Source: Stentor roeselii
Lineage: Eukaryota; Ciliophora; Heterotrichea; Heterotrichida; Stentoridae
Assembly: GCA_006503475.1 (NCBI GenBank)
Contig: RSEH01000103.1
Span: forward strand, 87,622 to 151,621
Direction of reading: 5' to 3'
Length of the DNA stretch: 64,000 nucleotides
Shown here: positions 1-64,000 of the stretch, piece after piece
Layout: each line of letters opens with the position of its first letter
Numbering within the stretch: the stretch's first letter is position 1
The notes under the pieces: generated by a model
What the model saw: only the letters and a program-made list of their open reading frames with translations
What the model was told of the DNA's origin: nothing
Database searches by the model: none
Program-made: the position numbers and the translations under genes

Positions 1-3000
1 TTTTAGTTTCCAAATATTGATGCATGCTTTTTTGAATCTCATCTAAAGTCTTGTTCGCATCTTTAAACAACAGCAGAGTCGTTCCATCAGGTGAGATACT
101 CTCCAACAACGACGGGTCCTTATTAGTAGCTTCCATCGTGTTTTTCCAGTTATTGTCCACCTGTTTAAACTGCCTGTTTTCCATAGGCATGCGCTTTTGA
201 ATATCGTCTGAAGCGAAGATAGGCTCCAGGTTCATCCAGACCACCTGGCACTTCATCCATTGTTCTAAAGTTTCTTGAATGTTTGAAATTCGTTGTTCCC
301 ACTCTTTGCACTGCTTTTCAATAGGCTTTGCATAAGGCGAGGTCTTCATGGCCTGGACATTATTGATCTGTTCATCAAGAATCACTTGAATTTCTTCAAC
401 AGTTTTAATAAGATACGAGTCTTTATGAGGAAGAATTTCAAGTTTCTGGGCTTCGGCTTCTTTTTTCATTTCTTCTAGTTTTTTCTTTAGTTTGAATTCC
501 CTTTGCGCCTTGTACGAGATTTCTTCGATATCTGTAATGAATTTTTTCATTCCTTTGTCAATCATCGTAGAAACTGTTTCCATTTTCGGCTGAAATCCTT
601 CAGCATACTCAGCAATAACCTCTAATCTTTTCCAGTGGTCTTCATTCCAAGCTTCATTCGCGATGGACTTGATAAGAGGAATATTTTCTTGAAAGCCTAG
701 AAGATGTTCTTTAAGATGACTGATGACATTAATAGCTTCAGGTGATTTTTCCATGAGTTTTTTATTCAGCATGGCGCATTCTCGTAGCCATTTATCGACA
801 TTAGAAGCGATTTCATTAGCATTAAGTTCATAAATCTTTTTTTCATTAAGCCAAACCTGCAGGCCGTACTTGAAATCATTAGCATTTGACCAGAGTTTAT
901 TGAAAGGGTCGAATTCGTCGATCATGTTCTGAAGTTCAGTCTTGTCCGACAGCTGAAGTTCAAATAAAGTCTCTCTTTGATTAAAAGAAACCATTTGGTC
1001 CATGGCTGTTTTCAGGTCAGCTTCTAGTCTTTTTATATTTTCGAAGTTTTTCGTGGTATCTTCGTAGTCAGCGTACTGCTGAACGCTTTCCAGGTCTCTA
1101 TGAAGCTGAGTGATTTCCTTGTACCACTTGTCTTTCTCTCTTTCCAGCTTTTCTCTGAATTTTTCTTCTTCGCCTTCAAGTCTTCCGATGCCTTCCTTGG
1201 CGCTGATGTCGATGGCTGTTGGAAGACTTTTACACATCCACATCTGGATACTGACTTCTTCGTCTAGTTGGTGAAGGTAGTCTTCAAGTATCAAAGAATG
1301 CATTATCACGTTGCCTTCTTGATCTTGAAGTTCAGCTTTTCGGTTTTTTATGTTTCGACCGAATTGTTTCAGTTCAAAAAGTTCTCCTTCATTTGTAGGA
1401 AGGGTCATGATTTTCTTCTCAATGAAACTGTAGGAGTTATGGATGTCAGTGATTTCATCAGCACAGAACTTTGCGATTGACTCTAAATAAATATTCATCG
1501 CTTTTTCTATCTTTTTATTTAAAGATGTTTTAAATTTCTCACATTGAACTTGGAATAACTCGAAATTAACTTCAAGTGTAGAGAACTGTACTGCTTTTTC
1601 CTTCGCTTTTTTCAGTTTAGACAGTTCTTCACGAAGTACTGACGTTGAAGGTTTCGTTGCCATGAGTTTCGTGATATGGTCTTTCGGGTTTAACTTTCCG
1701 ATCCACTCGAATTCTTTGTACTGAGTGAGAAGTGAAGTAGGTCCATGAGTGTATCTTTCAAAGAGTGAATTGATTTCTTCCTTCGCGGTTTGAACCCAAG
1801 GATTTTCATCGTCAAGGCGATAGACAGGGTCTTTCGGCATGTTCATGAAAGGGACCAGGTCTGACTCGAGGCTGATGATTTTATTGGTGGCTTCAACAAT
1901 CCAATCAATGCATTCAAGTAAAAATTTCTGAGTCTGAGGAAGACTTGGTCGGAAGTCGATGGACCCGACTTCGACCTCTTCAGCCTCCTGGTCTTTTTTA
2001 TGTCTTGAGGCTTCTTCAAGGTTCAGTTGAAGGATGATTAAAGGTTTATGCTTCCAAAGGTACCCGCCGTCTTCTCGGACAAACATTTGCAAGAACTCCA
2101 CCCAGTCCCTGATGCTTTGATAAGAAAAGTTACGCATGTGGGTGTTCATTATTAGATCCATTCTTCTTAGTACCTTATGTAAAGAACTGATTTTATACTC
2201 TTCAGTGTCTACAGCGAAAAAATTGAACTTTTCAGCCATTTTGTCCTGAGTTTCAGAAATCATGAACTCTCGCCAATGGATTAAAATATGCTGGCGAATC
2301 GCCTGATGATGATTTCTTTGAGTCTCGTAAAGTTGCTTCAGGTTCATCGGAAGTGTCAAGTTGCTGGTCTCTAAAAAGCGATGCTCTTGGAAACTAAAAC
2401 ATTTCGCTGCCATGATTTTGTTAACTTGAACGATTTCATTGATTTGGTACCAATGCTGGTCCTCCAAGGTCTTCTTCGTCTCTAGATAAGGATGCTTGGG
2501 GATCCTGACAGTTCCATATTCAGGAGCAACGATTTTTTCTCTTTTAATCCTGATTTTTTTTAATATAAACTCCGGGTCGTTTTTCGGGTCCTGCATTTTG
2601 ATAAGAATGACACATTTTTTCATGGCTCTCACATATTCTTCATCAACAATCACAAGTAAATGTTTTAAAGTTTCTTTAAACTTTTCAGGATTTTTCACAT
2701 TAACAGTCGCTTTCTGCATGATTTTCGCTTTAATCGATTTTTGCAACTGAGAGACAGTTTCCGCAGGAACATTATCAACAAGGTCAATAAACCTCGACTC
2801 AGTTTCAAAGTTCGCTTGAAGTTCGCGGGCTTGACTGACTCTTAATTCAAAGTTTTTCGGGTCTTCATCAACGAACATAATAGCAAGTCTCTGTACTTTC
2901 TTTTCAATTCCATTGCTAGAAATCCGTACAAGGAACTTTTTCTCAAACTTATCAAAAGCAATCAAATCAACAGTTTCCCAGGCATAGTTCCCCGAGTCAT

Positions 3001-3589
3001 AAACCGGTGACTTTGCATGAGGTCCTTCTTTTCCAGAGTAAAATTTAAGCCATTCTTCAGGTTGTTTTTCTTCAATCCAACAGTCAAACTTGGAGATGTC
3101 TCTTGTGCACTTCAAGTTGGGGAATTCAAAACTTGCGTATTCCTTGTGCAGGATGTCTCGGGTTCGCTCGATGTTGTACCCTGGAGGCTCTTCAGGCACT
3201 GGATCGTTTTTTTCTTTCTGGTCTAGACGGTAACTTGCTTCGTTTTCTCGCGTCGGGATGATTTTTTCGTGTTTTCGGACTGCCATTGAGTGCCGCGCTG
3301 GAAGACCTTTTGCGCTGTCTAGAGTCATCTTTGATTTTATCTCGGAGATCCATGGGTTTGACACGTTTACTGTCAGTTCTGGCTCGGTTTCTATTACTGG
3401 AAGAGCTTCTATTGACTCTGTGTGGTCTTTCAAGGTCGTGTCGCCTATTTTTGTCTTTGAGAGACTCTTGAAATTTGGAATGTTCAGCTGAACTAAAGGA
3501 CCGTATGGCCGTTTTTTGCTGCCGTCTCGGACTTTGTAGTCCCGGCTTTTCGCCCTAACCGATTTCATTATAAAGATGCAGCCATTCAT
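1..3589 (-). CDS. Axonemal dynein heavy chain, N-terminal part (cut by window edge)
   Basis: This is the first 1196 codons of a dynein heavy chain, read on the minus strand without introns or stops. The start is the ATG at 3589, directly preceded by an in-frame TAA; a second in-frame ATG lies at 3568. The segment covers the tail and enters the linker (DHC_N2). It holds a pattern typical of the linker: EQWMKCQVVWMNLEPIF, then MPMENRQFKQVDNNWK, then a KDPSLL block and a DEIQKSMHQYLETK block at the window edge. The tail is short and has no clear DHC_N1 part, which fits a single-headed inner-arm axonemal dynein (DNAH1/3/7/12 type) better than an outer-arm or cytoplasmic one. The AAA+ ring, stalk and remaining roughly 3000 residues lie outside the window. 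Role (family knowledge): microtubule motor in the cilia. The exact isotype cannot be told from this part. Confidence 0.92.
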   Translation of the reverse strand, partial: MNGCIFIMKSVRAKSRDYKVRDGSKKRPYGPLVQLNIPNFKSLSKTKIGDTTLKDHTESIEALPVIETEPELTVNVSNPWISEIKSKMTLDSAKGLPARHSMAVRKHEKIIPTRENEASYRLDQKEKNDPVPEEPPGYNIERTRDILHKEYASFEFPNLKCTRDISKFDCWIEEKQPEEWLKFYSGKEGPHAKSPVYDSGNYAWETVDLIAFDKFEKKFLVRISSNGIEKKVQRLAIMFVDEDPKNFELRVSQARELQANFETESRFIDLVDNVPAETVSQLQKSIKAKIMQKATVNVKNPEKFKETLKHLLVIVDEEYVRAMKKCVILIKMQDPKNDPEFILKKIRIKREKIVAPEYGTVRIPKHPYLETKKTLEDQHWYQINEIVQVNKIMAAKCFSFQEHRFLETSNLTLPMNLKQLYETQRNHHQAIRQHILIHWREFMISETQDKMAEKFNFFAVDTEEYKISSLHKVLRRMDLIMNTHMRNFSYQSIRDWVEFLQMFVREDGGYLWKHKPLIILQLNLEEASRHKKDQEAEEVEVGSIDFRPSLPQTQKFLLECIDWIVEATNKIISLESDLVPFMNMPKDPVYRLDDENPWVQTAKEEINSLFERYTHGPTSLLTQYKEFEWIGKLNPKDHITKLMATKPSTSVLREELSKLKKAKEKAVQFSTLEVNFELFQVQCEKFKTSLNKKIEKAMNIYLESIAKFCADEITDIHNSYSFIEKKIMTLPTNEGELFELKQFGRNIKNRKAELQDQEGNVIMHSLILEDYLHQLDEEVSIQMWMCKSLPTAIDISAKEGIGRLEGEEEKFREKLEREKDKWYKEITQLHRDLESVQQYADYEDTTKNFENIKRLEADLKTAMDQMVSFNQRETLFELQLSDKTELQNMIDEFDPFNKLWSNANDFKYGLQVWLNEKKIYELNANEIASNVDKWLRECAMLNKKLMEKSPEAINVISHLKEHLLGFQENIPLIKSIANEAWNEDHWKRLEVIAEYAEGFQPKMETVSTMIDKGMKKFITDIEEISYKAQREFKLKKKLEEMKKEAEAQKLEILPHKDSYLIKTVEEIQVILDEQINNVQAMKTSPYAKPIEKQCKEWEQRISNIQETLEQWMKCQVVWMNLEPIFASDDIQKRMPMENRQFKQVDNNWKNTMEATNKDPSLLESISPDGTTLLLFKDANKTLDEIQKSMHQYLETK

Positions 3590-3976
3590 ATTTTAGCTTT
3601 CTGGGGTGATGGAGGTGAAGGGATTTTCTTCGTGGTTTTAGCGATTTCTTGGAATTTATTTGGATTTTTAGTTGAGTTTGGATTGTTGATAAATTTTTTA
3701 GGGTTTTTGAAGTTTGGAGGAGTTTAGATTTAGATATGATTTTGAGATGGTGGAGGTTTTTGAGGGGTTTAGGGAGGGATTATATTTTGGTGGAGATTAT
3801 TTGTTTAGGAGAGGTTATTGGAGAACAATAGAATCCAACAGCCTAACCCCTAAACCAATATCAATCTCTCCAAAACTTCAAAACCAAACAATCTCAAATC
3901 CAAAATATTCCAGCTCACCTCCTAAATCCCAACAAAAATCCATTAAAATAACTACCTCAATTCAAATACTAAATAG
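3590..3976. promoter_or_regulatory. Divergent intergenic region between dynein and USP genes
   Basis: These 387 bp separate two divergent start codons and hold no convincing gene. Base composition flips: up to about 3825 the plus strand is rich in G and T with very little C, and from there to the USP start it is rich in C and A with very little G. Each promoter half is therefore C/A-rich on the strand of its own gene. A 92-codon ORF crosses this region but it follows the skew and reads into the USP start, so I do not accept it. Confidence 0.5.
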
Positions 3977-6900
3977 ATGGGATCGTGTGTAGGAATGAAC
4001 CGAAAGACTCAAGTTCGAATCGTAAACAACGGCAAAAGATTCGTCGACGAAGGCCAACTAATGGACCGTCTAACCGAGCAACAAGTGAAAACTCTTCGAG
4101 ACATATTCAACAAAATCCGTTCAACTTCCACAGGTCTAGACAAAAAAGGCATGCTCTTAATATTCCCAGCTCTAAAAACCTTTCCACAAGCAGTGATAAC
4201 AAAATGCTTCCAGCTCTTCACAAGAGACTCAAACCAAATCGAGTTCCGAACTTTCTGCATCATCATCTCAAAACTTCTCCTTTCAACAAAAGAAGACCAG
4301 TCCGAGTTCGTCTTCGAGTTGTTCGACTGCGACAATGACGGACAGTTGAAAGAATCAGAACTTGACATTTTTCTCAAAACTCAAGAATTGTTCCTAAGAA
4401 AATATTCAGAAAACTCTTCTGAAAACTTCAAACAACACAAGCAAAAATTCCAAAGTATTCCTGTTTTAAAGAAGGAATTTATAGACTGGTCTTTAAGAAA
4501 CATCGAACTCAGTGATTTGCTGAAACCTTTCGAAATCATTCCTTCAGCTCTAACAGAAAAACAAGTGATTTCAGCGAAAATGCTGAATTCAGAAAAAACT
4601 GCTGGGGAAGTAGTTTTTTTGATCAGTCAAGAATGGTGGGTGGCTTGGAAGATGTATGTTAGATTTCAACAGGATATTGATGAAGACTACGAGATCAGCA
4701 TTAATAACTTCGCTTCTATCGAGCCGAAGAATAGAACGAAACCTTTTGCATTAGGTGACCGTCCCATTGAAATTTTTAACAACAACCTTTTAGTTGATGA
4801 GAGGTTGAAGAAGAATTTAAAGGAAAACACGGATTTTATCGTGATTAAAAAAGATGTCTGGGAGCAACTTCTTGCTTGGTACGGCGGAGGACCTACCATC
4901 GCTCGAAAAGTGATTGAAGAGAAAGGCAGACTGGTGATCGACTACTACCCTTTGATTTTCACCGTCATTCCTGTGGATAAAAACGGTGTCACTCAGTTTG
5001 AACGGAAAAAAAACTTGATGGTCAACAAGAACTGCCTGATGAGGGAACTTTTAGAACTTTGCAGTAAACTTTTCGAGAAAACGAAAGAACTTTCACGTAT
5101 TCTCTATCAACGCAATGGGGCTTGGGACCATCTCATCAACCCTGAAGGAAAAGTATCTCCTCTTCTGGCAGATGGAAGTGAATTACTCCTTGAAACTGCT
5201 TTTATTGAAAAAAACGTGCAGATCTGGCCTACTGAAAAGAAAGAAAAAGTCAAAGCTGGTAGTGAAACTTCTGCAAATGACACAGGTCCTCAAGTCGCTC
5301 CTGAGCCGAAAAAAGCTGAAAAAACGATTCCAAAGCTTACAAATTCTGTGATTCCAGGAATTTCAGGTCTAGCGAACTTAGGGAACACTTGTTATTTAAA
5401 CTCGGTTCTTCAGTCATTGCTTCATACTCCAATGTTCGAGCAATTTTTCATCCGCGAGTCGATTTTTTCTTATTTAAACGCGTCTTTCAAAGGAGACACC
5501 CTGGCAGTCGACCTGAACCTTCTTGCGCGAGAAATGTTTTTAAGCAAAAACTCGAAAGTTATTCCAAAAAAGTTTCATAAAAAGTTCGTAAAACGCTTTC
5601 CGATGTATGAAGGGACTTCTCAGCATGATGCTCATGAATGTTTGAGTCTTATTCTTAACACCCTGCATGAAGAACTCAGCAGACAAGGCGAAGGCAAAGC
5701 GAATGAAACTTGCACTTTAGAAAATCCTGAAGATAAAAGTATTGAAATAATAAAAGCTGATGAACAGTGGAAGTCCTTGCAAGGTAGCATCGGCTCTCCT
5801 ATTTCAGATGTTTGTGGAGGGCAAACTCGAAGGACTCTTACTTGTGAAAACTGCGGGTATAAAAAGGTGTTGTTTGAAGTTTTTTATAATTTGAGTGTTC
5901 CTGTCCCTGCTTCTATGGAAATCGTCATCATGGCAACTGTCGTGTTCAAAAAACGAAAAGCTCTGCAGATTGGAATCTTTATCAATAAGTTCTTGAAAAT
6001 CACGGATTTAATGCAGGAAATCGCAAATCTTTCTGGACTCAGTAAGGAAAAACTTCTTCTCTGCTTTTTTTACTCAGGGTCACCAGTGATAGCTTTAAGA
6101 AACAACGAAAATGATCCTATTTTTCGTAGGATCAGGGAAAATTCAAATGTTTTTGTATTTGAGGTGATAACAACTCTAGAAGAATCAGAAAGTTTAGGAA
6201 AAAAATGGGCACCTTATGGAAATTCTTTATCTAGTTTTAAAGAAGGGGATCATGTAGACGTGCATTTAAACAAAGAGTGGAAAACAGGAAAAATCAAAGT
6301 GGTCCAAGAAAAGAGTTTCGTTGTAGACTTGGACTATGAAGACAAAGTAGATATTTTTACCTCTGTGGACCTGGCGCATTTCAGGGCTCACACTGTTTTC
6401 GAGAATCCTAAGATTTTACATATTCATATTTACCATCAGATGTCAAGGAATGGGAAGGTCGAATGCATGGGCTTTCCAAATATCATATCAATTGGAAACT
6501 GGTACACTTATAAGGACTTAACGGCTCATGTAAAGGAAATCATCGAACCTTTTCGACTTAAAAAGACAGAACCTTGCGAGTATAGTCTTCGACTCATTGA
6601 AAATATGACTTTTAAATGCGCGATTTGTAAAAAATGTGACGGCTGTTTAATGCCTGATGATAAAAACAACTTACTTACAATGGAAGCGAATTCAGTTGCT
6701 GTCCTTTGGGATGATGGAGGATTTTACCAGGAATTAAGTGTTCATCAATCTGTTGCGAATGTTGAAGAAAAGACGAAAAAACAACCGATTGATATAAGTG
6801 AATGTTTTAACTCATTTACAAATGTAGAAAAAGTTGATCTTGAATGCGAAAAATGCAAACACAAGGTGCACAAGACACTTGTAGATATTTGGAGAGTTCC

Positions 6901-12341: not shown

Positions 12342-12776
12342 TTAATCTATTTCTATTATTTCTTGGAATTTTTTTGGGCTGTTGTCGAAAATGAAGGGAA
12401 CTAGGATTTTTGGACCTAATAATTGTTTGAAGACTGGATTTGATTGAAAGATTTTAAAAATGTGGGAAGTTTGGATCTTTGAATGATTATTTTCTTTGTT
12501 GCTGGAGTTTTGAGCTAGGGTAAAAATCTCAGCAGTTAGGGTCTCAAGTGCTACAGAAATAGGCAAGGCAGCTTTTTTACTTACCCTTATATCCTTATCA
12601 CAGGCTTTCATTTGTTTAAGTATTTTACTTATAGGAAAAATCATCTGAGCCTTCGACTTTTCACTTTTTTTCTGAAATTTTCCAATATTTTCCTCCTCTT
12701 CTTTTTCAATCTTATCTTCCTCTTCTATTTCAAAAGCTTCAAGTCCTTCATCTTCCAAATCTTTCTCTGTTCTCAT
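12342..12776 (-). CDS. Divergent H2A-family histone-fold protein
   Basis: With the start at 12776 the product is 144 residues, close to normal H2A length. An acidic/basic tail (residues 1-44, with EEEDKIEKEEEEN) precedes a histone fold at about 45-122: FPISKILKQM matches the FPVGRIHRLL block of H2A, ALETLTAEIFTLA matches VLEYLTAEILELA, and IQTSHIFKIFQSNP matches IPRHIQLAIRNDE. Two of the acidic-patch positions (the Glu of ALE and of TAE) are kept. The third is Thr, and the NDEEL cluster is replaced by NPVFK. It may be an unusual H2A variant or a non-nucleosomal H2A-type partner (NC2-alpha, CHRAC15 or NF-YC class). TATAAAG stands immediately before the ATG at 12776, which favours this start. 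The frame stays open upstream to another ATG at 12980, which would add 68 residues and overlap the divergent gene. Confidence 0.68.
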   Translation of the reverse strand: MRTEKDLEDEGLEAFEIEEEDKIEKEEEENIGKFQKKSEKSKAQMIFPISKILKQMKACDKDIRVSKKAALPISVALETLTAEIFTLAQNSSNKENNHSKIQTSHIFKIFQSNPVFKQLLGPKILVPFIFDNSPKKFQEIIEID

Positions 12777-12819: not shown

Positions 12820-14097
12820 ATGGAGGAAAAGCTATACAAGGAAGATTCAAATAATTCCCTCGAATCACTTATTTTTACTTGTCTAAGACCCTTGGAGGGC
12901 AGCCTTGGTCTCGTGTGCTGCAACCATTCAGAGTTCTTTGAAAACTGTTCCAGTTGTTTCGATTCTCTGACTTTCGGCATGATAAACCACAAAAAGAACC
13001 AAAAACTACTGAAAAAACTCAATCAAGAACTCAGGGCCAGTGAAAGGCTCAAGGCTGAAGTTAAACTTCTGAAAAGAGAACTTAAAGACATACTCAGTGC
13101 AAATAAAACTGGAAAAATCGACTGCAAGGCGGACGTGCATCAACTTTTACTTGATAAGAAATTGCCGAAGAACTTTTTAGATATTTTTGAAAGTGCGGAA
13201 AAATCTCTTAGCTATATGATTAAACTGGGAACTATACAGAAGGATATGGAATGTAAAAGATGTTGCGAAAAAATGCTTTTGCAGGGGAGGGGAGGGTTTG
13301 GGTTTAATTATTATTGTGAGAGATGTAGGGTTAAACTTGATTATAAAGTTGGAACTTTTTGGGAAAAGTGCATTTTGGAACCGAATCAGATATTGTGGCT
13401 TATGCTTTTGTGGGTGGTAAAAGCTCGAGACATCGAGATAAGCCACTTAATGGAAATATCCGTCGGCTACGTCTCATCACTAACATCCCGAATCCGTAAA
13501 ATAGTATCTCGCGAATATCTAAACTCCTTGCCAATGTTCACCGGAATAGTCGAAGTAAACATCCGTAACTTCGTAAAGCGAAAAATCGAGATAGGCAAAA
13601 GTAAAGCAAAGGAAAGATGGGTGATGATTTTAGTTGAACGTGAAAGAACCTTGGTTTACATGGAAGCACTTTCGGAGAAGTCTTTCTCATCAATTTTGAA
13701 GATAATCCAGAAAAGATGTGAAGTTGGGACAGTCATCTTGACTGAAAAGTTGGCAGTGTTCGGAAATCTGGAAAACTACGGGTATCCGCACTATACAATA
13801 GAAAAAAATAAGGGATTTGCTTATTTGCAAGGAACAAAGTTGAATATTTCTAAAGCTTATGGACAGTGGGCTTGGATAAAACATGCGATTAAAAGGTATA
13901 ATCGAACTTCGAGCTATCTTAATGACTATCTGCTGGAATTTATTTGGAGAAATAGCATGAAACATCGGTTGCAGCAAGGAGAGATTATTAGGGGATTGTT
14001 TAATACTTCTTTTGTTCTTGTTTCCAAGTGTAAAAGTGAGGAGATTCAGATTTCGAAGAATAATGAGGATGTGGATGAGGTTTACTTAAGTGATTAG
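12820..14097 (+). CDS. Transposase-derived protein of the Merlin/IS1595 (ISXO2-like) type, probably catalytically inactive
   Basis: A 425-residue intact ORF. A zinc ribbon (Cys145, Cys148, Cys166, Cys169; CKRC and CERC) is followed by YKVGTFWEKCILEPNQILW and a helix-turn-helix-like stretch, EISHLMEISVGYVSSL. This is the N-terminal order of ISXO2/IS1595 transposases. The DDE/DDN core is recognisable: EVNIRNFVKRK (usually E-V-D-E), ERWVMILVERE, VILTEK (usually Y-T-D), GYPHYTI, LNISKAYGQW (usually N-T-I-E-x-x-W) and YLNDYLLEFIWR. At the key positions the first Asp is Asn247, the second is Glu309, and the Glu of the third block is Lys. The enzyme is thus probably dead while the fold is kept, which suggests domestication. 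No terminal inverted repeats or target-site duplications were seen around it. A shorter start at 12979 would give 372 residues. Confidence 0.8.
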   Translation: MEEKLYKEDSNNSLESLIFTCLRPLEGSLGLVCCNHSEFFENCSSCFDSLTFGMINHKKNQKLLKKLNQELRASERLKAEVKLLKRELKDILSANKTGKIDCKADVHQLLLDKKLPKNFLDIFESAEKSLSYMIKLGTIQKDMECKRCCEKMLLQGRGGFGFNYYCERCRVKLDYKVGTFWEKCILEPNQILWLMLLWVVKARDIEISHLMEISVGYVSSLTSRIRKIVSREYLNSLPMFTGIVEVNIRNFVKRKIEIGKSKAKERWVMILVERERTLVYMEALSEKSFSSILKIIQKRCEVGTVILTEKLAVFGNLENYGYPHYTIEKNKGFAYLQGTKLNISKAYGQWAWIKHAIKRYNRTSSYLNDYLLEFIWRNSMKHRLQQGEIIRGLFNTSFVLVSKCKSEEIQISKNNEDVDEVYLSD

Positions 14098-14321
14098 GTT
14101 TTGTTGATTCTTCTTGGTTTTTTTAGTATTTCATGAGTTTTTGATTTTTACTTATCTTCAAGATATTTGAAATTAAACTCGAGTTGCCCTGAAAGATAAT
14201 CCAATCAAACCCATCTCCTAAAAACCATTAAAAAAAATCCTAACCCTAATTCCTTCACACCCTTAAAAACCTCTCCATTCTCACCAAAAAACCTGAAACC
14301 GCTCCATCCCAAAAACCCTTC

Positions 14322-14378
14322 AACCTCTTCAAACCCTTCAAACCTCTTCAAACCCTTCAAACCTCTTCAAACCCTCTA
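14322..14378. repeat. Tandem repeat, 3 copies of a 19-bp unit
   Basis: The unit AACCTCTTCAAACCCTTCA occurs at 14322-14340 and 14341-14359 exactly, and at 14360-14378 with changes at its end. It is C/A/T-rich on the plus strand and nearly free of G. Confidence 0.9.
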
Positions 14379-14392
14379 ACCATAAATCCACT

Positions 14393-14473
14393 AAATCCTC
14401 AAAATCCTCAAAATCCTCAAAATCCTCAAAATCCTCAAAATCCTCAAAATCATCCAAATCATCCAAATCATCC
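14393..14473. repeat. Tandem 9-bp repeat, two sub-arrays
   Basis: Six perfect copies of AAATCCTCA (14393-14446) are followed without a break by three perfect copies of AAATCATCC (14447-14473). The second type differs from the first at two of nine positions, so the array records a homogenised switch between unit variants. Confidence 0.93.
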
Positions 14474-14579
14474 AAATCTAATCCTCACCTCTTTAAACCC
14501 TCAATTCAACCCCATTTGAAACGGCCTACATAAATCCTAAAAAAACTTCTAACAACTGACCTAAGTAATAAGTTAACAC

Positions 14580-15084: not shown

Positions 15085-15975
15085 TTAAAAGGTTAGATCT
15101 TCTACATTGAATAACCCTTGCATTCTGAAAACTCTTTCAAAAGGAGCCACATTCCCTTCATGAGAGTTTTCTTTGAAAGAATTGTGATCGTTGAAAATAG
15201 CGAAAACAATTTTTTTAAAGCACCCTTTAAAATTTCCTTCAATTTCTTGTTTGAATAACTCAGCAACTCTCTCAGTTGGATTCCGATACGCTCCACAGCC
15301 TAAAGCACTGAGCACGATCGAGTCATGTCCTCTTACAAAAGCGACAGAAAGAATCATTTGAATTTTATAGATCATTGTTTGAAGGTCTTCAGGATTATAA
15401 TCGAGTTTTCCATCATTCATCACAAGTTGCGGTCTTCTGATAGCTGCGCAGGCGATCATTGAGAGAGGAACAGGCTGAGTTAAGAATTGATAAAGACTAG
15501 CTTCACTTTTTCTAAAGACATTGATTTGAGGAGTGTAAATAACTCCGTCAATAGGATACAAATGTTGAGGTAAATGCAGAAAGTAGTCAGATCTTCTGAA
15601 AATAGACTCTTCTTGGGCACCAGCACCGTAAGCCACTCCTCCCCCAGGGGTGAAGTTGTTAGCCATATTAAGAACAACAGGATTAAACCCCTGCTTCAAC
15701 TCTAACCCAGCATCAAGACAGTCTCCATTAAAAATCACGACCTGTGTCTGAAAACAAGAAGAATCAGGTAAAATAACACCCAAATGCTTAGAACTCAAAA
15801 AATCCGAAGGAATCATTTCAACTTTTTCTCCATTTTCCAGTATAAACGACCTGTTTTCAACACAAGAAACTGTTTCTTTATAAACTTTTATCCGAAGTGC
15901 ATATCTTTCTTCTTGTGTCAAACTCGACAGTTGCTTCGAGTACTGCTCATATCTGGACTCCATTATTACAACCAT
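15085..15975 (-). CDS. Microbial-type poly(ADP-ribose) glycohydrolase (TIGR02452 / DUF2263 family)
   Basis: A 296-residue protein with the PARG signature: TPGGGVAYGAGAQEESIFRRS, with GGG at 111-113 and the QEE catalytic loop at 121-123. VLNMANNFTPGGG before it and SALGCGAYRNP near residue 230 are further macrodomain landmarks of this family. It lacks the extra regulatory and accessory domains of animal PARG and matches the short form of bacteria, fungi and protists. It should hydrolyse poly(ADP-ribose) chains and work against PARP activity in DNA repair or signalling. Translation may start at the ATG at 15975 or four codons later at 15963 (MESRYEQY). All motif residues are present, so activity is expected. 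Confidence 0.9.
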   Translation of the reverse strand: MVVIMESRYEQYSKQLSSLTQEERYALRIKVYKETVSCVENRSFILENGEKVEMIPSDFLSSKHLGVILPDSSCFQTQVVIFNGDCLDAGLELKQGFNPVVLNMANNFTPGGGVAYGAGAQEESIFRRSDYFLHLPQHLYPIDGVIYTPQINVFRKSEASLYQFLTQPVPLSMIACAAIRRPQLVMNDGKLDYNPEDLQTMIYKIQMILSVAFVRGHDSIVLSALGCGAYRNPTERVAELFKQEIEGNFKGCFKKIVFAIFNDHNSFKENSHEGNVAPFERVFRMQGLFNVEDLTF

Positions 15976-60417: not shown

Positions 60418-62766
60418 TTTATATTTAATTTTTTTTTTCAAAAAATGTAGAACATTGGAATGATATTTCCAATTGGTTAAATATTTGAAAACTGGCAATT
60501 TAGTCTCGTGTCAGACTGAAGATTATTATTTTAATATTTTTAGATAGTTTAAGTTAAAATTTTACTTGATGAAGGAAGTTTGAACTCAGTTTTATCTGGT
60601 TTTATAGAAGGATTATTTTTTTGTTCATTCTTTTATAAAGTTTATAGTAGAGATTTTCTAAATAAGTGATTAAAACATAGAAAGAAATTATATATTAAAA
60701 TAAAGTTTTATTTGATAAATGAAGCTAATTAACTTCAAGTCTTAAACAGTGTCCTAAAATCAACTAAGGTTTGATAATAAAATTCACTTTGATATATAGA
60801 GGATTCTAAATTTTAAGCTGGAATGTTTTTAGCATTAAACTAGTAGAATTTTGAGTTTGAAGAAAAACTTCAAAGGATTAATCTTTATGATTATAATAAA
60901 GATTATTTAATACTTGTTTGAAATTTACTTAAAAATCTTTTGAGTAGGCCTTGAAGGCTGAATTTCAATGAGCAAAAGTTAAATTACTTTAAGTTAATCA
61001 AGCTTCTTCAAGCAAAGACTTTTGTTTGCCAATTTTATTTCAAATATAGATATCTTTGATTAGGACTGTTCAATCATCTTATAGAACTTGAAAACGAATG
61101 CATTACCAGAAAGGTTGTCGAAAAGAGTAATACACTCCAAATGTTGAATCTAACAGCCTTATTAGTACTGAAAATTTGTAAGTATCCATTTTACCTAACA
61201 TTTGTAAAAGATTTTTGGGTTTGTTGTAAGAGTGATTTAGCTTCGAAAATTAATTGACTGGTTTAATCACCCTGACATCTCAATAATTTAGAAAGGTTTC
61301 TTCTTTGTTTAAGCGTTCCACGCAAATTTTCAAGTAATACTGATAAATTGAAAATCTTTGTTTCCTTCTTTATTCCAGTTTTCTTTAATGATATTAGAAT
61401 CAATAAAATATCTAGTCTATGCTTGAGAGATAAAAAGTATCACCAAAAATTTTTCAAATACTTAACTTATCACCTAACTAATAGATCCATTCTTGATTGA
61501 TGTACTAGCTATCTTTCAATTTTCTTGCTTCATCCTTAGCCTGGTGACTTTAGTACTCTTGTTTCTATTTTTTCAGAAATGTTCTTTTGAAATGACCCGA
61601 CAATTCTTCACTTTGGCTGCAGTTCATTAGGTTTTAATTGTTTTGCCTGAAATTAATGAAGGATTTGTGATTTTCTTTCTTATCAATCATTTTAACATTT
61701 TTTCTAGCGGTTTTAGAACTTATCAAGTTGAAATGCTTGTTTTGGTCTATCCGCTTTCTATTTTTATCAGAAAACTCCTATAAAAACTTAATTCCAGATA
61801 TGTAGCCTTTTTAAACTTGATCGGCTTTATCATTAAAACTACATATGTAGGTGAGTCAGATTTTTCTTCAGAATTTTATTCACAACTTTGAAGTTTTTCG
61901 TGTGAGAAAGCTTCTATTATGTGATGGATGATTTAAGAATTAAAGGATTATTTATTTATAATTTAAATATTTTGTTTGAAATTAGACCAGACTTTTGTAT
62001 ATTCTAAGGTTTTAAAACTAATGTTTTATGATTAATAATCTTCGAAGCATCCTTTAATCAATTGAAAGATTAATTCATTAAAATCAATATCTTCTATCAA
62101 GAATCCCTCCTTCCAAATAAAAATCTTTCCAACCTTATGAATAGAAATAACAAAAAATTAGACAAAAGTAATTTAAGTTCCTCCGCAATTCTCTTCAATT
62201 TCTTATAAACACAAACCATAGAGAAAAAAACAACAATTTTCACCTCTACCCAATAGTTACAGTGATTTTCTTTGGGTTTTTGATTCTCTTGATTAGCAGA
62301 AGTGATGCTAGTCGCCAGCAGCCTTCTTAAGAATTTCCTGATTCAACAGAATTTTCTTGTTAGTGTTTCTAGATAAGTCCTGTCCTGGTCTACTTTTCAA
62401 ACTATTCATGTAAAATTTCAGATTTCCGAGGTTTAAGTAGCATTTTTCGTCGAATAAGATTTTGTCTAAGACCTTGATTCAAGACTTCATTATGCATAAT
62501 TATTAGATGCACAGAATCTGCATTTTTTGAACCCTTGGGAAATATGAGCTTAATGCACTCTCAGCAGAATAAGTGCCGTTTGCGATAAATGTAAGAACCT
62601 GAGGCTTAGCAAGACAGATGCTGCAACAAGAGGACTGCTCGAATCATTCGATATTGATTCGCTGAACTTTAGGAATCTACATATCCTTTGAAGCATGCGT
62701 TTTCTGACTTTGACGAAAATACCGTGAAATGTATTGTTTTGAGTGTCTTGACATGATTATTCTTTA

Positions 62767-62886
62767 GATACTCAGTGATAGAAGAATTTGGTAAATAAAT
62801 GTTAAACAAGCATGAAAAAAGCCTTTGATACTCAATTATACAAAGATTTGGATACATTAATGTTAAAGAAGCATGAAAACAGCTTT
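62767..62886. repeat. Tandem duplication, 2 copies of 60 bp
   Basis: Units at 62767-62826 and 62827-62886 both start GATACTCA and end in a CTTT run, and share the segment ATGTTAAA-AAGCATGAAAA. They have the same length but have diverged at roughly a quarter of positions. An 81-codon minus-strand ORF spans them and therefore shows a repeated peptide, but I do not accept it as a gene. Confidence 0.8.
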
Positions 62887-63058
62887 GAGACGGAAAATAT
62901 CGATAAAAATCCAATTATTAGGTAAATTTCTTATTCAGTCTTCGGATCTAAACAATTAAAACAACATCAAAGGAAAATTCTCAAAAATTTGACCAGAAAG
63001 ACTCGAACTTGAAGGCAGACACTTACAAATTTCCAGGGACCTGAAATAAAACGAGACT

Positions 63059-63721: not shown

Positions 63722-64000
63722 GATGGTGAAAAAAAACAAGAAAGTAATAAAAAGAAGATGGTTGAATTAAAGAGATTGTAAGTGTTCATTAGGTATTAAT
63801 GAAAAGGTAATCAAAATAAAGCGAGTATAATAAACAAGAGTAAGAGAAGCAAAGTTTGTTAAAAAAATAAAGGTATTAAAAATGAAGCAAGTAAAAGAAA
63901 CGAAGGTATAAAAAATGAAGAAAGTAAAAGAAACGAAGGTATTAAAAATGAAGCGAGTAAAAGAAACGAAGGTATTAAAAATGAAGAGCGTAAAAGAAAC
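63722..64000 (+). repeat. 33-bp tandem repeat array (11-codon unit), running off the window
   Basis: Four well-kept units fill 63869-64000 (63869-63901, 63902-63934, 63935-63967, 63968-64000). Read in one frame they give EGIKNEASKRN and close variants, with no stop. Upstream units (63722-63754 gives DGEKKQESNKK; another near 63810 gives KGNQNKASIIN) keep the same frame and pattern but are interrupted by TAA and TGA codons. The frame differs from that of the B-box ORF by one base shift. It looks like coding repeat that is decayed on the left and intact on the right, where it may belong to a gene beyond the window. Confidence 0.85.

Follow-up and report, generated by a model that had tools for sequence, protein, structure and literature searches.

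A Merlin-derived host gene without the catalytic DDE triad in the genome of Stentor roeselii

The gene described here is a host gene of a heterotrich genome, most likely macronuclear, and derives from a transposase of the Merlin/IS1595 superfamily. It lies in a stretch of Stentor roeselii DNA 64,000 nucleotides long (hereafter the window), and its product lacks the catalytic DDE triad, the three positions being occupied by N247, E309 and Y347. Instead of cutting DNA itself, the protein probably serves as a helper subunit. Arguing from a known system in Paramecium, we give an even chance to the reading that it acts as a catalytically dead, DNA-binding architectural partner of four DDE-competent Merlin paralogues encoded in the same genome.

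Reading frame, modelled domains and catalytic positions

The features of the gene and of its nearest neighbour are listed below; the window gene is on contig C8, and C61 bears its sister gene.

12342..12776, minus strand: diverged H2A-like histone-fold gene (PF00125, 29.3 bits, cut-off 26.4)
12820..14097, plus strand: transposase-derived ORF of Merlin/IS1595 type, 425 amino acids (ORF call; PF12762, 42.7 bits)
12916..12957, plus strand: N-terminal CxxH..CxxC motif (C33, H36, C43, C46; paralogue alignment)
12949..13101, plus strand: long predicted helix, residues 44-94, coiled-coil-like (AlphaFold2 model)
13252..13326, plus strand: zinc-ribbon-like cysteines C145, C148, C166 and C169 (CxxC..CxxC pattern, model)
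13381..13527, plus strand: three-helix HTH-like region, residues 188-236 (model)
13540..13962, plus strand: RNase H-like (DDE integrase) fold, residues 241-381
13558..13560, plus strand: first catalytic position, Asn247 (Asp in the remaining 12 of 13 aligned sequences)
13576..13605, plus strand: KRKIEIGKSK block, residues 253-262, between the first two core strands
13744..13746, plus strand: second catalytic position, Glu309 (Asp in 11 of 13, Lys in C61)
13858..13860, plus strand: third catalytic position, Tyr347 (Glu in 11 of 13, Lys in C61)

The gene is one open frame ending in a TAG stop codon, which confirms the single 425-codon ORF of the preliminary description. The Pfam profile PF12762 (DDE_Tnp_IS1595) matches residues 253-377 (E=7.6e-11, against a cut-off of 27 bits) and is the sole Pfam match at E<=10; other Pfam domains, including DDE_Tnp_1_7 (PF13843) of the PiggyMac/PiggyBac family, gave none. 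The match covers profile positions 25-151 of 153, and the first catalytic strand falls outside it. The NCBIfam model transpos_IS1595 also recognises the protein (E=5e-10), but at 39.6 bits, below the model cut-off of 75.

The AlphaFold2 model of the window protein has a mean pLDDT of 69.4. Over residues 241-380, nine of 14 ten-residue blocks reach a pLDDT of 75 or more, whereas blocks 251-260 (53), 331-340 (45) and 341-350 (60, containing Tyr347) are low. The intact fold put forward in the preliminary description is thus modelled with uneven confidence. Matches listed in a fold search (VIA) were mostly retroviral integrase cores and support the fold only. We know of no solved structure of an IS1595 member; a search of solved structures by sequence returned a single match at E=0.85, which was treated as chance. 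The HTH-like stretch noted earlier appears in the model as the helical region 188-236. The long N-terminal helix is modelled with moderate confidence only (pLDDT of 59-76 by block, below 50 from residue 91). As for the zinc ribbon, none of the six intact proteins of the family matches the Pfam profile Zn_Tnp_IS1595 at E<=1, so the evidence for it is the CxxC..CxxC pattern of cysteines together with the modelled strands.

The catalytic columns were read from an alignment of 13 sequences, comprising the window protein, five paralogues from the same genome and seven bacterial IS1595 transposases taken from 55 plasmid records having a match. Asn247 and Glu309 occupy the first and second catalytic columns, as the preliminary description had it. 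The Lys that it gave as the third residue reflects a misalignment: Tyr347 is what faces the catalytic Glu of the seven IS1595 proteins. A Lys does stand in this column in the sister protein C61, and K354 is a separate, invariant residue. No DDE or DDN triad restored at other residues was seen in the alignment. One could imagine an alternative active site retaining some nuclease activity, built for example on E309, which is acidic, or on E245, which is Glu in 13 of 13 sequences. We consider this very unlikely. The invariance of E245 extends to every ordinary IS1595 protein aligned, so that it is no substitute catalytic residue; furthermore, Asn and Tyr fill the outer two of the three positions, and the sister protein reads D/K/K.

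Transposon features and genomic setting

The window gene is an intact host gene outside any recognisable transposon. Terminal inverted repeats (TIRs) were sought in 1.5 kb on each side of six genes, with 40 dinucleotide shuffles for each. The best flanking inverted match at the window gene was 12 bp long, equal to the null median of 12 (95% of nulls, 14), and the flank search proposed in the preliminary description thus yielded no TIR above the null at this gene. Four of the other five genes stayed within 95% of their nulls. C339 alone rose above, with an inverted match of exactly paired 15 bp where 95% of nulls gave 12. This match was rejected as a TIR because the neighbouring ORF 2166-4136 contains its left arm (L027 position 2863) and the C339 gene is 12 bases from its other neighbour.

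The many near-identical, TIR-bearing copies that the preliminary description had weighed against domestication were not found, the best other copy detected in the genome sharing 32% identity with the window protein; nor were there element ends to which 8-9 bp target duplications could be anchored. Genes are densely packed in the window. Its ORFs of 150 amino acids or longer, chosen so that none overlaps a longer ORF by 30% or more, number 24 and together amount to 82% of the sequence. Lack of TIRs, lack of near-identical copies and the dense gene neighbourhood argue against a live transposon.

The diverged H2A-like gene stands head to head with the window gene, 43 bases separating the likely start codons. 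Its best solved-structure match is macroH2A (E=2.5e-7), and at least eight other matches occur in the genome (24-35% identical). The antisense frame of this gene stays open further upstream, to 12980. On the other side, the gap after the window gene holds short direct repeats at 14300-14480, with units like CCTCAAAAT (by eye), and the next gene but one (15085-15975, minus strand) encodes a microbial-type PARG catalytic domain (70.6 bits). Self-similar stretches occur near the window end, at 62764-62891 and 63803-64000.

At the ends of contigs C11 and C511 stands (TGTTAGGG)n, which is complementary to the Blepharisma telomere repeat CCCTAACA given in PMC9942806. TGA terminates two of the 24 window ORFs, as well as the paralogue frames on C3 and C339. 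Telomere repeats and TGA stop usage together fit a heterotrich macronucleus with the standard code; in Blepharisma, UGA is reported to be read as Trp (PMC9942806). GTA..TAG and three similar patterns, tallied by length in the window and 11 loci as candidate tiny introns, gave no clear peak at 15-16 bases. One telomere (L030 5128-5279) starts directly on a decayed Merlin piece, C11:149416-149652, and another Merlin piece, C511:260097-260279, lies about 1.7 kb from the telomeric contig end. Telomere addition may favour transposon remains, or may merely fall there.

Profiles of other transposase families were also run against the genome. DDE_1 gave one intact and one broken frame among the matches listed; the sole intact frame found (C8:8771-9283, open frame of 465 amino acids) is on the same contig as the window. 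The MULE, DDE_3 and DDE_Tnp_4 profiles had no match in the genome. Neither had the PiggyBac profile, but it was silent in all 14 control genomes too, so that PiggyBac genes may have gone undetected. Piwi-domain matches number at least 12, including a pair on C50 separated by about 2 kb, and are consistent with a small-RNA system.

The paralogue family and its conservation

The window protein, PF12762 and the C20 and C61 proteins served as queries against the genome (44.4 Mb in 522 contigs). The search scores best candidates, and family counts are lower bounds. PF12762 gave at least 15 matches, 12 of the 15 over the cut-off. Six of them are long, intact frames and the other nine are short pieces. 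The intact proteins measure 381, 383, 385, 387, 400 and 425 amino acids; the window gene accordingly has at least five intact paralogues in its own genome, the best with E=6.5e-62, far beyond chance. Among the copies found, none is closer than 58-60% identity. Two further candidates, C213 (E 0.007) and C55 (E 0.3), are not among the 15 PF12762 matches and were dropped as chance. Ten stretches in viral contigs matched a pattern for relatives, and none of the ten was confirmed.

The DDE triad is kept in four of the six intact genes (C3, C135, C339 and C20) and missing in two, the window gene and its likewise disarmed sister C61 (D/K/K). Six cysteines are invariant across the intact paralogues. 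In the N-terminal motif, C43 and C46 (the CxxC) are present in all six and the preceding His in five; the full CxxH is found in four, C3 being without the Cys and C339 without both Cys and His. The stretch preceding the zinc-ribbon cysteines is common to all six proteins and is modelled in the window protein as the long helix. The ribbon cysteines themselves are spaced CxxC..CxxC in C8 and C61 and CxC..CxC in the four DDE paralogues. The seven bacterial IS1595 proteins share with the window protein the HTH region and the RNase H core, and two of them the zinc-ribbon region as well; they differ in having kept DDE, are 18-21% identical to it, and are without the N-terminal Cys/His and long-helix module, five also without the zinc-ribbon region.

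The KRKIEIGKSK block is identical in C8 and C61 and absent from the four DDE paralogues. Since it aligns with a basic RKGKRGRG-type loop of five bacterial proteins, it may be an ancestral loop that was kept, rather than a novel motif.

The short pieces and other remains raise the question of a repressor. A dead transposase might occupy the ends of remaining Merlin elements or poison their active multimers, and nine short PF12762 pieces do exist beyond the six intact genes. Yet seven of the nine have stops inside the match, the pieces are broken or short, and no live Merlin was found in the macronuclear assembly; we regard a repressor or competitor as quite unlikely.

A pseudogene on C132 (about 76359-77374, L029) is closest to the DDE-competent C135 and has many stops and shifted frames. 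A second alike stretch lies near it (L026 1483-2052 resembling L029 2621-3190), and the region has the look of a segmental duplicate that has decayed. Two pieces of Merlin remains, one on C165 and one on C195 (L033 4587-4945 and L021 1196-1564), are 75.6% alike in DNA, which fits the expectation for old copies of one element. On C40, units of about 1.4 kb that are 90-95% alike form a tandem array (L031 204-4424), which adjoins a decayed Merlin piece (L031 4568-4990).

A tree of the core domain united C8 and C61 in a clade (support 98/95) and separated the six proteins from the bacterial ones at 100/99. The pair persisted (97/93) when the catalytic columns and the shared block were removed. The grouping of the four DDE genes, at 89/93 in the first tree, lost its resolution when these columns were taken out. 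A full-length tree of the six split the pair from the four at 100/100, C8 and C61 being flagged as long branches.

The two groups differ in how their cores are conserved. For the three DDE pairs that were compared (C3-C20, C3-C135 and C339-C20), identity is 69-80% over the RNase H core and 13-56% over other regions. Core identities involving the disarmed genes are 40% (C8-C61), 33% (C8-C3) and 40% (C61-C3). The contrast between 69-80% and 33-40% suggests that selection holds the catalytic core tightly in the four DDE genes, and less so in the disarmed two.

Neutral simulation was used to gauge how long an unselected frame survives. The C8 frame remained open in 7 of 1000 runs at 90% identity and the C61 frame in 34 of 1000; neither did in any of 1000 runs at 80% identity or below. 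The whole-protein identity of C8 and C61 is only 30-32%. Even halved per lineage, this divergence exceeds the survival of an unselected frame, and both have therefore been kept as protein-coding genes. The simulation speaks for long-term retention and not for selection at each stage, as some of the divergence may predate loss of the triad. The tree suggests that the common ancestor of the pair had already lost the second and third residues, in which case retention would have followed the loss.

These results bear on the reading of the window gene as a dying transposon copy, or a pseudogene open by chance. Its end branch is the longest of the six in the core tree (0.91), and a decayed relative, C132, is present in the genome. 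That reading is nevertheless extremely unlikely. No neutral run stayed open at 80% identity and the nearest relative is far more distant than that; the six cysteines are invariant, and the C132 pseudogene is by contrast full of stops. With triad lost, frame kept, sister disarmed, and neither TIR nor near-identical copies found, the domesticated, non-catalytic gene of the preliminary description is well supported.

Proposed role and relation to known systems

A partner role would run as follows. The window protein would be unable to cut DNA by DDE chemistry and would retain DNA binding through its putative zinc ribbon, HTH and basic RNase H domain. The N-terminal Cys/His and long-helix module may assemble it with the DDE-competent paralogues and, by analogy with PgmL and PiggyMac in Paramecium, the protein could serve as an architectural or targeting subunit in macronuclear development. 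The Paramecium PgmLs are described in PMC6143343 as having no conserved catalytic site, binding PiggyMac and being essential for its localisation and for excision. They are catalytically dead paralogues beside a competent one, and the present genome likewise combines dead (two of six) with competent (four of six) paralogues. The PgmLs differ in belonging to the PiggyBac rather than the Merlin superfamily, and in that interaction and excision phenotype are demonstrated there (PMC6143343).

The main rival to such a partner role is that the protein arose from a dead transposase and works alone, independently of the DDE paralogues, as a DNA-binding regulator or a chromatin protein, with transcription or Merlin-derived sites as its possible targets. 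Loss of the triad, a diverged core and retained binding modules are in keeping with it, as is the head-to-head arrangement with the H2A-like gene. On the other hand, the whole architecture, N-terminal module included, is common to the DDE-competent paralogues, and related ciliate genes are developmental (PMC3558436, PMC9942806). We rate the stand-alone role as a serious but rather doubtful possibility.

The kind of gene described here is already known. Preserved DDE_Tnp_IS1595 ORFs of 381 to 425 amino acids were reported in 2021 from S. coeruleus and S. roeselii (PMC8101967), with no conserved TIRs or target-site duplications, very short intergenic regions and, in several, no DDE; domestication was proposed, so that the reading as a domesticated Merlin ORF is not new. 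These ORFs resemble the present genes in PF12762, in lacking TIRs and in the loss of DDE from several. Their size range equals that of our six, and the window gene may be among the copies already reported. One published copy is on RSEH01000003.1, and C3 has a copy here; another is on RSEH1000098.1, while C98 gave no match, which speaks against a simple correspondence of contig numbers. The same source finds copies identical in the DDE region in the S. coeruleus assembly, and states that Merlin elements described so far are without an N-terminal zinc domain, though one is predicted in a few proteins (PMC8101967). Its text, as available in part, contains no mention that we found of the sister pair, the KRKIEIGKSK block or the core contrast. 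More generally, the partial texts of the sources cited yielded no account, for the ciliate DDE_Tnp_IS1595 family, of a disarmed sister pair, a contrast in core conservation or a partner model.

Relatives in other ciliates point to development. Oxytricha has 11 DDE_Tnp_IS1595 proteins, seven with catalytic residues, and the class is expressed almost only in conjugation (PMC3558436). Like the Stentor genes, these macronuclear genes are called domesticated, have no TIRs and mix complete with incomplete triads; they differ in coming from another ciliate class and in that conjugation expression is demonstrated (PMC3558436). In Blepharisma stoltei, also a heterotrich, somatic DDE_Tnp_IS1595 genes have no flanking terminal repeats and some complete triads, and the top 100 genes up-regulated in development include such genes (PMC9942806); the triad is not intact in all DDE/D copies (PMC9942856). 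There the developmental up-regulation is demonstrated, and dead partner subunits are not described in the available text of either source. Two PF12762 proteins are known from Loxodes, and their relatives are the Blepharisma and Stentor ones (PMC11441545). Because the Oxytricha and Blepharisma relatives are expressed or induced in development (PMC3558436, PMC9942806), a role of the window gene in genome rearrangement is plausible by analogy.

In Stentor, mating is difficult to study and genome editing consequently so as well, and S. coeruleus offers only a weaker pair of PiggyBac matches (PMC9942806). A wider proposal, which we hold to be unlikely, is that the genome-editing excision machine is here Merlin-derived rather than PiggyBac-derived, with the four DDE paralogues cutting and the C8/C61 clade positioning or assembling them. 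If this is true, the Pgm/PgmL arrangement would have been re-invented independently from another transposase superfamily. The candidates offered here for the Stentor genome-editing enzyme are the six intact Merlin-derived genes, beside at least 12 Piwi-domain matches, and because they fall into a disarmed clade and four genes under apparent catalytic constraint, the list is short and testable.
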